IMG/VR virus record: IMGVR_UViG_3300033148_003408
Location: 1-38,008 of that record
Strand: one strand, 5' to 3'
Origin: a virus
Length of the DNA stretch: 38,008 bases
Shown piece after piece: positions 5,287 through 29,231 of this stretch (positions within the stretch are counted from its first letter, which is position 1; every line of letters starts with the position of its first letter). Under the pieces are notes generated by a model that made no database searches, was not told where the DNA came from, and saw only the letters and a list, made by a program, of their open reading frames with translations. The translations under genes and the position numbers were made by a program.

Positions 5287-6599
5287 TGTGGATAAAGAAA
5301 CCAACATTTCCAAATGAGCCAGAACTTCAAGATGTCTGGGTCAATAAACCAACTTGTGATATTCTAATTAAAAGCTTTGAAAGGTTTGACTGCTTGGAAC
5401 GACTAATCCATTCAATAAAATGGTATTACCCTGATATGCCGATAATAATTGCTGATGACTCAAGAGAGGAAGTCCCAGAATATATTACAAGTATTCCAAA
5501 TGTAAAGGTAATAAAACTACCCTACAATATAGGACTTTCTGCTGGAAGAAATGCTCTATTAAAAGAAAGCAAAGCGGAATATGTTATAAAGTGTGATGAT
5601 GATTTAATTTTTAATGACGAAACAAGAATTGATAAACTAATAGACATTTTAGAGAAAGACAAAGAGGTGGATATTATAGGAGGGATTTGGAGGGCAAACG
5701 GGAAAAAGGCAATTGGTTGGGACGGGAAAATTGAGATAATAAATAAAGGGATTCAATTCAAACCATTAACTTCTAAATGGAAAGTAATTGGAAACACACC
5801 TTACAGGAAGACAGATTTAGTTATTAACTTTTTTGTCGCAAGAAGAGAGAAACTTCCATTTTGGGACGAAAGGTTAAAAATATCAAGAGAACATCTTGAT
5901 TATGATTTAATGCTTAAAGAAAAAAAGGTTAATGTATATTATACGCCCTCTGTAATAGTGGGACATTTACATAAGGGAAATGATTTTTACAAAGAAAAAA
6001 GGTTTGGAGGAAATAAGTATTGGAACGATATTTTTATGAAAAAATGGGGTTTAGAAAGTTCACCCTCATATTCAGCGCAAGAAACTGAAATTAGAGATAT
6101 AAATATATTAAAAGGAATAAAGCCGAATATCGTTGTTCTCGGAGTAGGACATTCCAACACCACGATTACCACAAAACAATTAGGAGTGTTGGGCTGGAAC
6201 TTGAGAGATGCTGACGAGGAATATGCTGAAAGTGTATCTGTGAGAGAGATGAATGACGAGATTTTAAGAACAAAGTTCTTTGACTATGATAAAGCATTAA
6301 GGATTATAGAAAAGTTCCCCCAGCCATGGGCTATAAAAGACCCGAGATTTGCCAAAGGAACACTGCCTTACTGGCGTAAAGTGTTTGAGATTTATAAACC
6401 AATTCTTCTATGGGTAAAGAAAGACAGAGATAAGGTAAGGGAAAGTTATGTTAAAAGAGGCGAGTCGCCCAAGAAAGTTGATTTGTATTTTGAAAACTGC
6501 GAAAGGTATTATGAAAGTTGGAATTATATGAAAATAAGTATAGATGAGGAACAAATACAAGAAGCAATTTCATTATGGAAAAATACTCATTGTTTATAG
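5286..6599 (+). CDS. Glycosyltransferase-sulfotransferase fusion protein
   Basis: 437 residues in two domains. Residues 24-230 are a GT-A glycosyltransferase resembling beta-1,4-N-acetylgalactosaminyltransferases: DILIKSFERFDCLERL, IIIADDS, NIGLSAGRN, a CDDDLIF metal site (DDD 104-106), the acidic site EH 202-203 and GHLHKG at 226. Residues 280-437 look like a sulfotransferase. GVGHSNTT (286-293) fits the 5'-phosphosulfate-binding loop, KDPRF is at 351, and LLWVKKDRDKVRESYVKR at 374-391 fits the 3'-phosphate-binding helix. One polypeptide could therefore add a sugar and sulfate it. The two genes that follow look like PAPS synthesis genes, which supports this. The sulfotransferase call rests on motifs only; the acceptor is unknown. 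Confidence 0.8.
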   Translation: MWIKKPTFPNEPELQDVWVNKPTCDILIKSFERFDCLERLIHSIKWYYPDMPIIIADDSREEVPEYITSIPNVKVIKLPYNIGLSAGRNALLKESKAEYVIKCDDDLIFNDETRIDKLIDILEKDKEVDIIGGIWRANGKKAIGWDGKIEIINKGIQFKPLTSKWKVIGNTPYRKTDLVINFFVARREKLPFWDERLKISREHLDYDLMLKEKKVNVYYTPSVIVGHLHKGNDFYKEKRFGGNKYWNDIFMKKWGLESSPSYSAQETEIRDINILKGIKPNIVVLGVGHSNTTITTKQLGVLGWNLRDADEEYAESVSVREMNDEILRTKFFDYDKALRIIEKFPQPWAIKDPRFAKGTLPYWRKVFEIYKPILLWVKKDRDKVRESYVKRGESPKKVDLYFENCERYYESWNYMKISIDEEQIQEAISLWKNTHCL

Positions 6600-6913
6600 G
6601 GAGATGGCAGTGTATCCCACCACACGCAGGACATATCGCCTTGATTAAGAAAGCCCGTTTCAAACCGCTGATAGCAATAAGGGATACTAAGGTATCAAAG
6701 AAAGACCCCTACACTTATGAGCAGAGAAGAAAAGCATTTAGAAAGATATTTCCAGAAGCCAAGATTATCAAGATTTTTAATATAGGAGAGGTTGTTTACG
6801 GCAGAAAGGTTGGATACGATATAAGAAAAGTTAAACTTTCCAAAGATATAGAAAATATCTCTGGGACAAAAATACGTGATAATTTGGGTAAGAGGAAAAA
6901 GAAAATCGGGTAA
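6575..6913 (+). CDS. Small nucleotidyltransferase, ATP-sulfurylase/NMNAT type
   Basis: 112 residues of the HxGH nucleotidyltransferase superfamily. It has FIGRWQCIPPHAGHIALI with HAGH at 17-20, AIRDT at 34-38, a DPYTYEQRRKAF helix, and ISGTKIR at 95-101, the C-terminal ATP-binding signature shared by ATP sulfurylases and NMN adenylyltransferases. It is far shorter than cellular ATP sulfurylase, so it is a minimal single-domain form. The start overlaps the upstream gene by 25 nt, and the end overlaps the APS kinase gene by 38 nt in another frame. Placement between a sulfotransferase and an APS kinase suggests it makes adenylyl sulfate from ATP and sulfate. A cytidylyl- or nicotinamide-transferase role cannot be excluded. 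Confidence 0.75.
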   Translation: MEKYSLFIGRWQCIPPHAGHIALIKKARFKPLIAIRDTKVSKKDPYTYEQRRKAFRKIFPEAKIIKIFNIGEVVYGRKVGYDIRKVKLSKDIENISGTKIRDNLGKRKKKIG

Positions 6914-7166
6914 AACAACATTGGCAAAAGAATTACAGAGGTTGATGCCTAACTCAATAAACCTTGACGGGGACGAAATGAGGAATAGCATATCAAAGGG
7001 ATTAGGTTTTACAGAGAAAGATAGGTTAGAAAATAATTTAAGGATAGCCCGTTTGGCAAAGGTTTTGGAAAGACAAGGGTTTCCAATAATTGTTTCAACT
7101 ATTTGCCCGTCTTATGTCAAACAAGAAGTTTTTAATATAACAGGTTGTAAGTTTATAGATTTATAA
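6876..7166 (+). CDS. cysC-like: Short adenylylsulfate (APS) kinase
   Basis: 96 residues starting at GTG 6876. Motifs in order: P-loop GKRKSGKTT (7-15), NLDGDEMRNSI (29-39), GFTEKDRLENNLRIA (44-58) and IIVSTICPS (71-79). The LDGDxxR, GFxxxDRxxN and late VSxIxP set is characteristic of APS kinase, which phosphorylates APS to PAPS. Cellular CysC is about twice as long; this one stops at CKFIDL and lacks the usual C-terminal lid region. Short forms may be normal in phages, or it may be truncated. The 38-nt overlap with the upstream nucleotidyltransferase, in a different frame, resembles a split bifunctional PAPS synthase. Confidence 0.8.
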   Translation: MIIWVRGKRKSGKTTLAKELQRLMPNSINLDGDEMRNSISKGLGFTEKDRLENNLRIARLAKVLERQGFPIIVSTICPSYVKQEVFNITGCKFIDL

Positions 7167-7168
7167 TT

Positions 7169-7417
7169 ATGGAAAATAACAACGGAATAAGAAAAGTGTT
7201 TAGAAGCGAAATAACTTGGATTATATTTATAATCGGGGCTATGTTTTCAGTTTTTAACTGGATAATTTTACCATTGAATAATATACAGAAAGATGTAGAA
7301 TTACTTAAAGAAAATCATCTCCCCCACCTTCAGAAATTAGTGGACGAAAATCGGGGGGACATAAACACAATAAAATTAGATATAGCAGAGATAAAGACAA
7401 CATTAAAAATTAAATAA
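7169..7417 (+). CDS. Single-span membrane protein with coiled coil
   Basis: 82 residues: a basic N-terminus, one hydrophobic segment at about 15-33 (ITWIIFIIGAMFSVFNWIIL), then an amphipathic helix with heptad leucines and isoleucines to the end. The shape fits a small phage lysis protein (holin-associated or XhlA-like with reversed order) or a membrane anchor. It starts 2 nt after the APS kinase stop. Its own stop is the first base of the long RNA helix at 7417, so its mRNA runs directly into a structured RNA. Confidence 0.65.
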   Translation: MENNNGIRKVFRSEITWIIFIIGAMFSVFNWIILPLNNIQKDVELLKENHLPHLQKLVDENRGDINTIKLDIAEIKTTLKIK

Positions 7418-7584
7418 TTCTGACTTTAATTCTGCTAATGGCTGAATGCCGACAATGAATTCGGCTTGAGAATAGAGGTCGGCTCTCTATTTTGACTAAT
7501 GCGTCGGTGGAAGGTCCGCGAGGAAGTTAGGGTTCGCCGCTAACTTGAAATCTAAAATGCTGTTAGTGGAGTTAAGGTCAGAAT
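7417..7584 (+). ncRNA. 168-nt structured RNA closed by a 26-bp helix
   Basis: Bases 7417-7442 pair with 7559-7584 over 26 consecutive positions with no bulge: 20 Watson-Crick and 6 G-U pairs. The wobble pairs indicate selection on RNA rather than a DNA inverted repeat. Inside are hairpins 7448-7452/7461-7465 (GCCGA/TCGGC), 7471-7477/7485-7491 (AATAGAG/CTCTATT) and 7524-7530/7540-7546 (AAGTTAG/CTAACTT), plus a GC-rich stretch, so the whole is a multibranch structure. No intrinsic terminator follows. I do not recognise the family. Strand is inferred from the gene direction. Confidence 0.7.
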
Positions 7585-7585
7585 A

Positions 7586-7604
7586 GTTCTTTTAGGAAAG
7601 GAAC
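7586..7604 (+). promoter_or_regulatory. Hairpin masking the ribosome binding site
   Basis: GTTCTTTT (7586-7593) pairs with AAAGGAAC (7597-7604) around a 3-nt loop. It covers the purine-rich AGGAAAGGA that would serve as Shine-Dalgarno for the ATG at 7609. This would reduce translation of the following ORF unless the hairpin is opened. Confidence 0.5.
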
Positions 7605-7608
7605 AGTT

Positions 7609-7833
7609 ATGGTGCCTGTCGTAATTGATGTTGAGGGTAGCAGAGGCGTCAAACACATTAAGGACGAGAAATCGTTTCAAGAAGTGTGTTCGCTTCTGCG
7701 AGAGTTGGTTCAGACCGCAAGGTTTAGGACGAAAGTGATTTTTATCACAATGTGTTCACCGACACACGACTTGATACAGGAAGGAGAGATAGACCACCAT
7801 TTCTTTGAGAGAGCAGAGTTCCTTCAAGGGTAG
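7609..7833 (+). CDS. Unknown 74-aa protein inside an RNA-flanked module
   Basis: 74 residues starting MVPVVIDVEGSRGVKHI. Predicted alternating strands and helices, with a central VIFITMCSP strand and a His/Glu-rich end (EIDHHFFERAEF). It has no recognisable family. Unlike most genes here it has a good Shine-Dalgarno, and its codon choice looks less A/T-biased than its neighbours. It sits between the 168-nt RNA and a second structured RNA at 7847-7946, and a 5-bp hairpin (7828-7841) covers its stop codon. The arrangement suggests a discrete inserted module. Function unknown. Confidence 0.55.
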   Translation: MVPVVIDVEGSRGVKHIKDEKSFQEVCSLLRELVQTARFRTKVIFITMCSPTHDLIQEGEIDHHFFERAEFLQG

Positions 7834-7846
7834 AGATACCCAAAAC

Positions 7847-7946
7847 GACATAGGGCGATAAGCTATGGCTCGGCAAGAGCCGTCTTAAAAAGGGTGGGGA
7901 CAAATTGTCCATATCCTTAAAGGACATAAATATTTCGCCCTATGTC
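7847..7946 (+). ncRNA. 100-nt structured RNA with a 12-bp closing stem
   Basis: GACATAGGGCGA (7847-7858) pairs perfectly with TCGCCCTATGTC (7935-7946). Inside, GGCTC/GAGCC (7867-7871/7877-7881) forms one hairpin. TGTCC at 7906-7910 can pair either with the upstream GGACA at 7898-7902 or with the downstream GGACA at 7922-7926, so two alternative folds are possible. No U-tract follows. It lies directly after the unknown 74-aa gene and may be its 3' partner element. No known family is recognised. Confidence 0.65.
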
Positions 7947-7983
7947 CCTTTTAATCTATACATTAAGCAATAAATCTATACAG

Positions 7984-8079: not shown

Positions 8080-8429
8080 AACTTACAGAAAAACAATTTA
8101 ACTTGTTTAAGGAAGAGTGTTTGAAATGGCAAGACCGCTTTGAACTTCATAATTGGGATTTACATTTTAGATGGCAGGAAAGTGAAGATGGCAGAGCAGG
8201 TATAAATACTAATCTTGGTAATTATATCGCCACCGCTTTTTTATCAAGAGAATGGGATAATTATGATACAATAACAGACCAAGGTATAAAAATGGTTGCT
8301 AAACACGAAATGATACATCTCTTAATAGCAAGATTAGAAACAGTTGGAAAAGCCAGATATATTAGCGAGGACGAGATGACAGAAGCGGATGAAGAATTAG
8401 TAAGAAAATTAGAATATATTATAAAATGA
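8076..8429 (+). CDS. HExxH metalloprotease-like protein
   Basis: 117 residues from ATG 8076. I prefer this start to the upstream in-frame one because of the ATGA overlap with the preceding peptide. The motif VAKHEMIHLLIARL (74-87) is an HExxH zinc site with HEMIH at 77-81, followed by a Glu-rich helix that could supply a third ligand. Size and motif suit a minimal SprT-like or gluzincin-type protein of the kind found in phages. It overlaps the M23 endopeptidase gene by 4 nt, so a lysis or maturation role is likely. Substrate unknown. Confidence 0.65.
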   Translation: MKLTEKQFNLFKEECLKWQDRFELHNWDLHFRWQESEDGRAGINTNLGNYIATAFLSREWDNYDTITDQGIKMVAKHEMIHLLIARLETVGKARYISEDEMTEADEELVRKLEYIIK

Positions 8430-8986
8430 AATTATTTAGAAGTATCAAGGAAAATTATGTGAGCCAAGGATTTGGCGTAGAAAATACGGCTCCTTCTATG
8501 CTGGAATTTTACAAGAGTTTGGGACTCCGAGGACACAACGGCATAGATTTTAAATGCGAAAACGGCTCCCCCCTCTATTTTAACTGCTATGATTATGAGG
8601 GGCGGGTTATTGAATTATCCCACGATACAAAAGCGGGACTGGGAATTGTAATAGGCATACAAACCCCTGAGGGGTGCTATAAGACGATTTACTGGCACTT
8701 AAAGGACATTGGGGTCAAGATAGGGCAAGTAGTGTCTACGGGGCAGAAATTGGGTCATTGCGACAATACAGGATACAGCACGGGTTCGCACCTGCATTTC
8801 GGTTTGAAACTATGCGACAAAAACTTTAACACAATAAATCGGGGGAATGGCTATAATGGTTGTATCTCACCTGATAAATATCTTACTAATACATATATTA
8901 AGGACATAATGAAAAACCTTTCGGGGCAGAAAAACATATTGGAAAGGATTATTAAACTGATACAGGATTTCTTAAAAGATTTATAA
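8426..8986 (+). CDS. M23 (LytM-type) endopeptidase, probable endolysin
   Basis: 186 residues. The M23 zinc-peptidase signature is clear: HNGID (His37, Asp41), a YWHL strand at 89-92, GHCDNTGYSTG at 110-120 and SHLHFGL with catalytic HLH at 122-124. Such enzymes cut peptide cross-links in peptidoglycan. No signal peptide or wall-binding domain is obvious; the last 50 residues are a basic helix. It follows the HEMIH gene with an ATGA overlap. A holin-like gene lies about 300 bp downstream, which makes this the endolysin of the phage. Confidence 0.9.
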   Translation: MKLFRSIKENYVSQGFGVENTAPSMLEFYKSLGLRGHNGIDFKCENGSPLYFNCYDYEGRVIELSHDTKAGLGIVIGIQTPEGCYKTIYWHLKDIGVKIGQVVSTGQKLGHCDNTGYSTGSHLHFGLKLCDKNFNTINRGNGYNGCISPDKYLTNTYIKDIMKNLSGQKNILERIIKLIQDFLKDL

Positions 8987-9027: not shown

Positions 9028-9267
9028 ATGGAAGGATTACAAAAAGATATTCACGATTTTAGAAAACAAATTGATTCTTGTATTAAAGCATTGGTTCAAA
9101 GTGATGTTAAACCAAACGGAGATAATTCTGTCGGATTTGGTTCAGAATATCAAAGATGTAGAGAAAAAGCATATACTAATTTACAAGAAGCAAAAATGTG
9201 GATGGGAAAATGTTTAGAAGCAATAGGAAGTGAATTTCCAGAAGAATTAAGGGATGAAGCGGAATAA
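9028..9267 (+). CDS. Small helical protein, possible Acb2/Tad1-type cyclic-nucleotide sponge
   Basis: 79 residues, all helical. The C-terminal half, CREKAYTNLQEAKMWMGKCL, resembles the conserved hairpin of the phage Acb2/Tad1-type family, whose members bind cyclic-nucleotide signals of CBASS or Thoeris defence. Length and the RExxxTxLQEAxMWxGxxLxxxG pattern fit. The assignment is from memory of the family and should be tested by profile search. It is a free-standing cassette between lysis genes, with AAAGGTCG motifs on both sides. Confidence 0.55.
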   Translation: MEGLQKDIHDFRKQIDSCIKALVQSDVKPNGDNSVGFGSEYQRCREKAYTNLQEAKMWMGKCLEAIGSEFPEELRDEAE

Positions 9268-9943: not shown

Positions 9944-10321
9944 ATGAAAAAACAATTAACAAGAATAAAACGAGAATTATATTATTATAAGGACGAAAAG
10001 AGGATAAATGGAGTTCATTCAAACATTCGGGGAGATGTTTCAAACATTCAGGGAGATGTTTCGGGTATTCAGGGAGATGTTTCAGACATTCAAGGAAGTG
10101 TTTCAAACATTCGGGGAAACGTTTCAAACATTCAAGGAAGTGTTTCAAACATTCAGGGAGATGTTTCAGACCTTTGGGGAGATGTTTCGGGCATTCAGGG
10201 AGATGTTTCAGGTATTTGGGCAGGTGTTTCATACATTTTGGGAGATTTAGACAAGTGTAAAATAACAGAAGAAGAAAGAAAAAAAGGGATAAATATAAAG
10301 GATTTAGTTAAGAAATATTAA
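9944..10321 (+). CDS. Heptad-repeat protein (NIxGDVS repeats)
   Basis: 125 residues. After a basic 26-residue N-terminus come ten perfect seven-residue repeats of the form (N/G/D)I(Q/R/W)G(D/S/N)VS, then a degenerate eleventh, then a charged tail. Ile and Val recur every 3-4 residues, so it can form a parallel coiled coil or a narrow beta-helix. Similar IxGDVS repeats occur in other phage and bacterial proteins with no known function. Repeat number can change by slippage of the 21-nt units without breaking the frame. Function unknown. Confidence 0.65.
   Translation: MKKQLTRIKRELYYYKDEKRINGVHSNIRGDVSNIQGDVSGIQGDVSDIQGSVSNIRGNVSNIQGSVSNIQGDVSDLWGDVSGIQGDVSGIWAGVSYILGDLDKCKITEEERKKGINIKDLVKKY
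10022..10249 (+). repeat. Tandem 21-nt repeat encoding the heptads
   Basis: About eleven imperfect 21-nt units (consensus like AACATTCAGGGAGATGTTTC) in frame with the heptad protein. Because the unit is a multiple of three and lacks stops, the array stays open in other frames too, which creates spurious ORFs there. A unit-count polymorphism would be expected in a population. Confidence 0.85.
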
Positions 10322-27959: not shown

Positions 27960-28814
27960 GTGGCAAACACAATTGGTGATACAGTTTGGCGTTTAAAGTA
28001 TCAAAAAAATACCATTGAGACAGCATTAAGGAATATGCTTGTAGCAGAGAAGATTTGTGATGTTGATAGGTCAGAGGGTAAATATATTAGAAACCCTTAC
28101 GGCACAGCGCCTACAACGGTATTAAAGACAATCTCTGGAACTTATGACGTTTCCGATTTCACGATTACAGACGATACTTTGGACGTAAACTACACATTCA
28201 TTTCCGCAAACCACGTCTACGACTGGGAGGAAACTCTTTCAAACTTTGATATGTTCGCTAATAGGACAGAGGAATTAGCCGCTTCGGTAGCTCAAAGTAT
28301 TGATAAGTTTGTTCTCAACTATATGTGCGAAGTATGTACTGGCGCATATACTACACCAGCAGGAGGTTTCACAACCGCGGCTAACTTAAACGTCATTATG
28401 TCTAACCTTATTTCAAAGGTTTCAGGATATTCTGATGTTTATAAGGGATTATTCTTGGTTCTTGAAAACACTGATATTACAGGCGTTATTCAAGCGCAGG
28501 CGACAAACGGCTTCTCATTCGCAGATGCGGCTCTTAATAATGGATTTTTAACTTCTTATATGGGAGTTGACATCTATGTTGTAAGAGCAGACACATTTGT
28601 TGATGATACTCTGGGAGATTACGCGGTTACTAACGATAATCACAAAGTATTTGGAGTAAAAGGAGTAACGACATATGCCGCGCCAAGAGGAATTCAGTTT
28701 GAGGAAAAAGAAGTAACAGGAAAAACAGGCAAAGAGGTTGTTTGCTTTGGCTATATCGGAGCTAAACTTTGGTACACCAAATTAGCTTTGGTTGTTGATA
28801 TAACACTGGCATAA
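27960..28814 (+). CDS. Major capsid protein
   Basis: 284 residues with GTG start (GGTGGATAAGG before it). Beta-rich with a long N-terminal arm (MANTIGDTVWRLKYQKNTIE). It has NPYGTAPTTVL, VYDWEETLSNFDMFANRTEE and a C-terminal GKEVVCFGYIGAKLWYTKLA. Its position after a scaffold and before a small virion protein fits the coat of a podovirus-type phage with P22/HK97-like fold. No capsid protease gene was found, so scaffold removal may be protease-free. Two hairpins follow its stop at once. Confidence 0.75.
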   Translation: MANTIGDTVWRLKYQKNTIETALRNMLVAEKICDVDRSEGKYIRNPYGTAPTTVLKTISGTYDVSDFTITDDTLDVNYTFISANHVYDWEETLSNFDMFANRTEELAASVAQSIDKFVLNYMCEVCTGAYTTPAGGFTTAANLNVIMSNLISKVSGYSDVYKGLFLVLENTDITGVIQAQATNGFSFADAALNNGFLTSYMGVDIYVVRADTFVDDTLGDYAVTNDNHKVFGVKGVTTYAAPRGIQFEEKEVTGKTGKEVVCFGYIGAKLWYTKLALVVDITLA

Positions 28815-28868
28815 CCCAACTCTCCCTTTCAGGGAGGGTTGGGGACGCTTATCCCACCGATTGGCGTC
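28815..28868 (+). promoter_or_regulatory. Two hairpins immediately after the coat gene
   Basis: CCCAACTCTCCC (28815-28826) pairs with GGGAGGGTTGGG (28832-28843) over 12 bp with one G-U, beginning at the base after the stop codon. GACGC/GCGTC (28844-28848/28864-28868) follows without spacer. No U-tract, so it probably shields the 3' end of the coat mRNA or lowers read-through rather than ending all transcription. Confidence 0.65.
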
Positions 28869-28912
28869 TCCTATTCTCCCTAAAAGGGTTAATAAGGTAT
28901 TGCTACAATACA

Positions 28913-29128
28913 ATGGCGCAAGCAGAACAACATTGGTTCGGAAATAGATTAATAATCGGTGGCTCAGTAATTATTACATCAGGAGCATCAGATACATCTG
29001 CTTTGATTTTTGAGGAAGTGGGATATGTAAGCAAAGGTTCGCTCTATTTCCAAGTAACAGGTAGCGGAGGAGGTTTCTGGGTTTGTACTGATGAAGCTGG
29101 AACTTGGGTATTATTGACTATCGCTTAA
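28913..29128 (+). CDS. Probable small capsid decoration or virion protein
   Basis: 71 residues, MAQAEQHWFGNRLIIGGSVI and beta-rich (SLYFQVTGSGGGFWVCTDEA). Starts AATGGCGCAAG like the protein at 24638 (MAQ). Small size, beta content and position after the coat gene suggest decoration. No family recognised. Confidence 0.55.
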   Translation: MAQAEQHWFGNRLIIGGSVIITSGASDTSALIFEEVGYVSKGSLYFQVTGSGGGFWVCTDEAGTWVLLTIA

Positions 29129-29159: not shown

Positions 29160-29231
29160 ATACGAAGAATTATTAACCTCACGCTTCGTATCCTGCACCT
29201 TTACTCGTGAGGTATGGTGTGGGATACGAAG
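29160..29231 (+). promoter_or_regulatory. H-type pseudoknot with a 16-bp stem
   Basis: 29184-29199 pairs with 29216-29231 over 16 continuous bp (14 Watson-Crick, 2 G-U) around a 16-nt loop. The loop contains CGTGAGG (29206-29212), perfectly complementary to CCTCACG (29177-29183) directly before the stem, giving a 7-bp pseudoknot. In addition ATACGAAG (29160-29167) repeats the 3' strand and can displace it (pairs with 29184-29191), so the fold may switch. It lies between the coat/decoration genes and the gene at 29293. No known family. Confidence 0.75.

Follow-up and report, generated by a model that had tools for sequence, protein, structure and literature searches.

Between the tail-fibre-like genes and the M23 lysis gene of an uncultured phage lies a 530-nt unit (7417-7946) in which a small ORF led by a Shine-Dalgarno (SD) sequence is embedded in strongly folded RNA. 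The unit is located on the 38-kb IMG/VR phage record IMGVR_UViG_3300033148_003408, whose 38,008 nucleotides are referred to here as the window. Does such a locus represent an accessory gene with an elaborate mRNA, a noncoding RNA, a processing site or a mobile element? Our analysis points with a probability of roughly one half to a moron-like cassette beside the lysis genes, comprising an accessory mRNA whose 5' and 3' domains are structured. An accessory-gene slot with a structured mRNA is preferred because related phages possess similar islands beside their lysis genes.

Genomic setting and flanking RNA domains

The unit and its neighbours comprise the following features.

7169..7417, + strand: small transmembrane/coiled-coil ORF bounding the unit on its 5' side (weak phrog_1009 match, E 0.0024)
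7417..7584, + strand: RNA domain I, a 26-bp closing stem round five hairpins, with one UUCG loop (z -5.9)
7586..7604, + strand: hairpin holding the SD sequence AAGGA (8 bp, weak, -4.1 kcal/mol)
7605..7804, + strand: RNA domain II, multibranched and overlapping the ORF, including hairpins with GAAA and GCAA loops
7609..7833, + strand: ORF P0001, 74 aa, SD-led, putatively coding, no homologue
7805..7841, + strand: two hairpins, the second with a GAGA tetraloop and containing the P0001 stop codon
7847..7946, + strand: RNA domain III, a 12-bp closing stem round two hairpins, then CCCUUUU (z -6.75)
8426..8986, + strand: M23 endopeptidase of the lysis region (Pfam PF01551, E 5e-18), a synteny anchor with the related phage G077

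Judged by position only, the ORF preceding the unit is holin- or spanin-like. Its TAA stop ends on the first base of domain I, and on the 3' side the unit is flanked by a zincin-like ORF and the M23 peptidase. The GC content amounts to 0.41-0.46 in the unit and 0.41-0.45 in its three parts, versus about 0.29-0.32 in the flanking genes. No integrase was seen among the window proteins scanned, and neither tRNA nor tmRNA was found in the window. A consensus scan for promoters of the sigma-70 type detected no 9-of-12 site just upstream of 7417. On the - strand a weak consensus promoter match (8057-8029) points into domain III; 11 consensus matches were found against 5.9+/-2.8 expected.

Other parts of the window gave observations in their own right. 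A 79-aa ORF 3' of the M23 gene (9028-9267, + strand) matched the Acb2/Tad1 hairpin domain, an anti-CBASS family, below the cut-off (E 0.0023, 18.5 bits versus 27) and was without PDB or PHROG match. If this similarity is real, a counter-defence gene would also be present in the lysis-adjacent region. Two overlapping ORFs at 6575-7166 (+ strand) correspond to the two ends of a single kinase family, phrog_10255, but with the ends swapped: the ORF resembling the CTP-transferase part precedes the one resembling the APS-kinase part. The same pair in the same order occurs in the related phage G007 (L104:15552-16330). A repetitive coiled-coil-like protein with QGDVSNIQGDVSDIQG repeats is encoded at 9944-10321 (+ strand); the repeats are also covered by a second open frame (10008-10250) and by a third on the - strand. 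A further strongly folded, GC-rich stretch with a long hairpin between ORFs is located at 28801-29060 (+ strand; z -5.9 over 120 nt and -7.7 over 200 nt), and a 23-nt inverted repeat follows slightly downstream (29184-29231, + strand).

The first-pass annotation had described two complex RNAs closed by stems of 26 and 12 bp, and both stems were recovered. The 26-bp stem (7417-7442/7559-7584) has a mean pair probability of 0.99 and no bulge, and its 6 G-U pairs point to a feature of the + strand RNA rather than a DNA inverted repeat. The GC-rich 12-bp stem (7847-7858/7935-7946) likewise reaches 0.99. The 3' end of domain III is a candidate terminator by its predicted fold; the stem was not flagged by the terminator scan, which had a loop limit of 8 nt. 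Compared to dinucleotide shuffles, z-scores of -5.9, -6.75 and -9.4 were obtained for 7410-7612, 7834-7960 and 7410-7960, respectively, and no shuffle of any of the three folded as well as the native sequence. Over 7417-7946, 51% of the bases pair with p>0.9 as opposed to 16+/-9% in shuffles, these structures being single-sequence predictions from one member and thus without covariation. The confident hairpins of this interval include 3 GNRA loops and 1 UUCG loop (shuffle mean 0.1; at least 3 in 0/120); the GNRA count was made post hoc, after the fold had been seen, which somewhat flatters its significance and leaves the fold z-scores unaffected.

RNase III prefers roughly two helical turns, and the uninterrupted 26 bp exceed this length. 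The stem may thus be an RNase III-type site in the ordinary processing or insulation of a small late gene, with the 3' stem as terminator or 3' stabiliser and no autonomous unit. In related phages, the corresponding position is occupied by plain hairpin terminators, in line with this explanation. It is nevertheless improbable in our view, as the five hairpins of domain I, the structured ORF interval and the composition step are left unexplained.

ORF P0001 and the structure of its interval

The closing helices of domain II are AUGGUG/CACCAU (7609-7614/7795-7800) and CUGUC/GAUAG, and the P0001 start codon is part of this long-range helix of 6+5 bp. The fold of 7609-7833 deviated from dinucleotide shuffles by a z-score of -3.7 and from synonymous shuffles by -3.2 to -3.3, while most small genes of the window scored about zero in the same tests. 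Three GNRA loops were predicted in the ORF interval, compared to 0-2 in 149/150 synonymous shuffles. Hence, the layout of RNA, ORF and RNA proposed earlier holds for the flanking domains and is too simple for the ORF interval, which is itself structured, so that the whole 530 nt could be one three-domain RNA. Similarly, the SD had been described as hidden in a hairpin. This hairpin is indeed predicted, but at -4.1 kcal/mol, with the SD about 34% unpaired in its presence, it is too weak on its own for a strong mask. According to the predictions, the AUG is 88% free in 7417-7640 alone versus 4% in the full-length RNA.

The claim of an unusually good SD was borne out: the match of P0001 spans 5 nt, which 0/38 window ORFs of at least 100 aa reached at their first ATG, although this statistic depends on start choice and rises to 20% of genes if the best start is taken instead. 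Most genes of at least 100 aa in this phage hardly use an SD at the first ATG, whereas the lysis-adjacent GC islands of related phages do; the contrast may be a clue to the host group or reflect expression in different phases.

The coding status of P0001 was assessed from several properties. As 8.6% of shuffles contain a + strand open frame of at least 74 aa, ORF length alone proves nothing. The amino-acid make-up was matched by 17% of random ORFs and the period-3 signal by 11%; in the latter, two of the window's accepted small genes performed no better. Length, amino-acid make-up and period-3 each lean weakly towards coding. The GC content falls to 0.31 at codon position 2 versus 0.54 and 0.51 at the other positions. 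None of the genes listed exceeds P0001 in GC3 (0.51) or falls below it in codon log-odds; together with the GC step, this agrees with the first-pass impression of codon and base usage unlike that of the neighbours. D/E/K/R/H residues abound in the protein, which has neither a long hydrophobic stretch nor an evident membrane segment; its AlphaFold model (pLDDT 54) was too weak for a structure search. Since SD-led and partly protein-like ORFs occur in the islands of related phages, the balance tips slightly towards P0001 being a real gene.

These data also have to be weighed against a single ornate noncoding phage RNA of about 530 nt, composed of three domains, which would work structurally or regulatorily around lysis and in which the 74-aa frame and its SD would be accidental. 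The z-score and confident pairing over the whole length, GNRA and UUCG loops far above chance and an ORF interval that is structured at fixed protein sequence, with three of the GNRA loops, all suit such an RNA, as do the paired start and stop codons of P0001, the frequency of equally long frames in shuffles and a codon fit that is the poorest among the genes. A correctly spaced SD in a phage hardly using SDs, the matching SD-led ORFs in related islands, some of them clearly protein-like, and the GC dip at codon position 2 are difficult to reconcile with it, and there is neither an Rfam match nor a second member that would provide covariation. We regard this explanation as the main rival of the cassette and as the less probable of the two. 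The unit might, tentatively, belong to an undescribed class of ornate phage RNAs, about 530 nt long, comprising three domains with several GNRA loops and possibly bifunctional in that a small protein is encoded as well. If the noncoding reading is true, a new large structured phage RNA would be added to a rare kind with roles still unknown.

Large RNAs of this kind include ROOL and GOLLD, which are phage-encoded and often found near tRNA islands (PMC12286853). The unit resembles them in being phage-encoded, several hundred nt long and multidomain. It differs by the lack of an Rfam match and of a tRNA island nearby, by the SD-led frame inside and by its single member, and it is smaller than GOLLD.

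Searches for relatives and islands in related phages

The unit had no match to known RNA families in Rfam at gathering score, and the covariance models of ROOL, GOLLD and HEARO gave none even at E up to 10. A DNA similarity search for the 530-bp block in other phages and plasmids, which the first-pass annotation had suggested, likewise returned none. P0001 was without family, Pfam or PADLOC match, tblastn against phages yielded a chance-level match only, and none was found in IMG/VR and GTDB genomes by pattern scans, which depend on exact identity over short words and overlook relatives of modest identity; records very close to the window may also have been absent from the collections searched. 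Neither the RNAs nor P0001 had a sequence relative among about 25 related phage genomes. Of the 132 related stretches retrieved with the terminase, 80 were retained, and the 530 nt were absent by sequence and covariance model from all terminase-related stretches searched. Single-sequence covariance models of domain I (R2) and domain III (R1) scored significantly only in the window when run on the related phages, and the record holds a single copy of the unit. As anchors in IMG/VR, the M23 neighbour protein gave no match, the zincin-like neighbour one distant match, and the helicase seven distant matches that lacked the unit.

Several candidates were rejected. The exact RNA word GGTCCGCGAGGAAGTT had 15 matches in IMG/VR, all judged to be chance, and two further exact words had zero. 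An RGVKH match between the ORF interval and an ORF before a capsid-like gene in a related phage (G043) could not be prolonged and was set aside. The folding scan of related phages also raised candidates that proved to be tRNA clusters (L127), common hairpins or coding regions and were discarded.

Module-like boundaries and foreign composition speak for the earlier proposal of a selfish RNA element or a toxin-antitoxin pair. In hok and other mRNAs of type I toxins, the start is occluded in the full-length RNA, and the predicted occlusion of the P0001 AUG is reminiscent of this. Like hok-like mRNAs, the unit has a small ORF in a highly folded RNA; unlike them, it encodes a charged protein where they have a short membrane peptide, its start codon pairs with a segment within the ORF itself, and no antisense RNA was found. 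P0001 was accompanied by no partner ORF, and no antisense promoter stood out in the consensus scan. With regard to a selfish element, no target-site duplication was present at 7417 and 7946, the longest direct repeat near the ends being 7 nt (7400/7960) and off the boundaries. There is no transposase, reverse transcriptase or HNH gene inside, and Rfam gave no intron or retron match. HEARO/IsrB units share with the locus a structured RNA adjoining an ORF, from which the absence of a HEARO match and of an HNH nuclease sets it apart. Taken with the single copy and the lack of sequence relatives, these results leave both proposals very unlikely. For the RNA-protein particle that had also been proposed, the analysis yielded evidence in neither direction.

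What was found instead are islands analogous to the unit beside the lysis genes of five related phages. Together with the composition step, they uphold the earlier notion of a distinct module of foreign composition.

L170:7340-7786: island of G077
L099:12010-13090: island of G001 (leader with a z-score of -4.1; terminator preceding an amidase)
L109:2780-3180: island of G012 (leader with two stems, 12 and 10 bp long)
L105:10480-11280: island of G007
L122:5870-6460: island of G028

These islands are GC-rich, and their small ORFs, SD-led yet unrelated to P0001, are in most cases preceded by a leader with a long stem. The SDs of G001, G007, G012 and G028 are 5-7 nt long. Long-stem leaders were found in G001, G012 and G007, whereas the leader of G077 is unstructured, and a terminator-like hairpin ends the islands of G001, G077 and G012. 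Cys-pair motifs occur in island ORFs of G001, G012 and G007, and several island ORFs (G001c, G001d, G007) display a clear period-3 signal. As the SD-led ORFs of these cassettes come with leaders or terminators of a simpler form, the parts of the unit are separable in kind.

One of these relatives, G077, is a 29-kb phage contig whose terminase is 78% and whose M23 protein is 43-44% identical to those of the window. Its island of roughly 440 nt lies between the transmembrane/coiled-coil ORF and M23, with a GC content of up to 0.47 (contig 0.34) and a regional z-score of -5.6. It ends in an interrupted 14-bp stem enclosing two hairpins, followed by a T-run, which is the same layout as in domain III. 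Its ORFs P0002 and P0003 are SD-led and were tried as relatives of P0001, with no convincing similarity. The contig (L160/L170, JAQTOC010000010.1) has been placed in the bin of a 'Candidatus Nanoarchaeia' MAG; this assignment is probably wrong, because genes for an M23 peptidase and a phage terminase are found on it.

In G007 and G028 the lysis enzyme directly follows the transmembrane/coiled-coil gene and the island is situated further down, which argues for a modular slot; the small transmembrane genes of the window, G007 and G028 were equated by position and type only. Among 427 small ORFs from 25 genomes or fragments, 13 combined an SD of at least 5 nt with a GC excess of at least 0.05, and 11 of these sit in the islands of six phages; the scan took the best start and some of the 13 overlap in other frames, so the number should not be read as a count of independent genes. 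The difference in structured leaders for the whole ORF class was marginal (P 0.049), hence this generalisation is a lead only.

A proposed moron-like accessory cassette

In the preferred reading, a moron-like accessory mRNA cassette, the unit would have been inserted beside the lysis genes and would give rise to one highly folded + strand mRNA of roughly 530 nt encoding the 74-aa ORFan P0001. Domain I would cap the 5' side and domain III with its short U-run would provide a terminator-like 3' cap, both presumably insulating the unit from late-operon read-through and from nucleases. Translation of P0001 would start at an SD unusual for the phage. The weak hairpin and the long-range AUG helix may hamper translation of the full-length RNA, whereas the 5' part would be open as long as the chain is nascent. 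The role of P0001 would be accessory, perhaps host-directed. The non-random predicted structures, the composition step, the SD and the related islands on which this model builds were computed directly; the single transcript, its translation and its protection, like the accessory role, we infer from them. Against the model stand the lack of a homologue of P0001, its weak coding signals, an ORF interval as structured as a noncoding RNA, the lack of a good sigma-70 promoter just upstream and of an integrase among the window proteins scanned, the marginal leader difference and the unstructured G077 leader.

Among known systems, the unit would work most like the prophage 'moron' or accessory loci described previously (PMC7067206, PMC6469090), and we do not file it as a member. 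It shares with them a small size and foreign composition among late and lysis genes (GC 0.41-0.45 vs 0.29-0.32 in the neighbours, composition unlike that of the neighbours being a moron criterion), ORFs that are unrelated between relatives and a candidate terminator of its own. It differs in that its RNA is extremely structured through and around the ORF. Further moron criteria are an insertion site whose flanking genes adjoin each other in relatives, a promoter and terminator belonging to the locus itself, expression in the lysogen and dispensability for the phage.

If the unit is indeed such a cassette, this phage lineage would keep a recognisable slot for small accessory genes beside its lysis genes, with an SD, a step in GC content and, frequently, a leader that forms a long stem as hallmarks. 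These marks would then offer a simple route to harvest unknown, possibly host-directed phage proteins.
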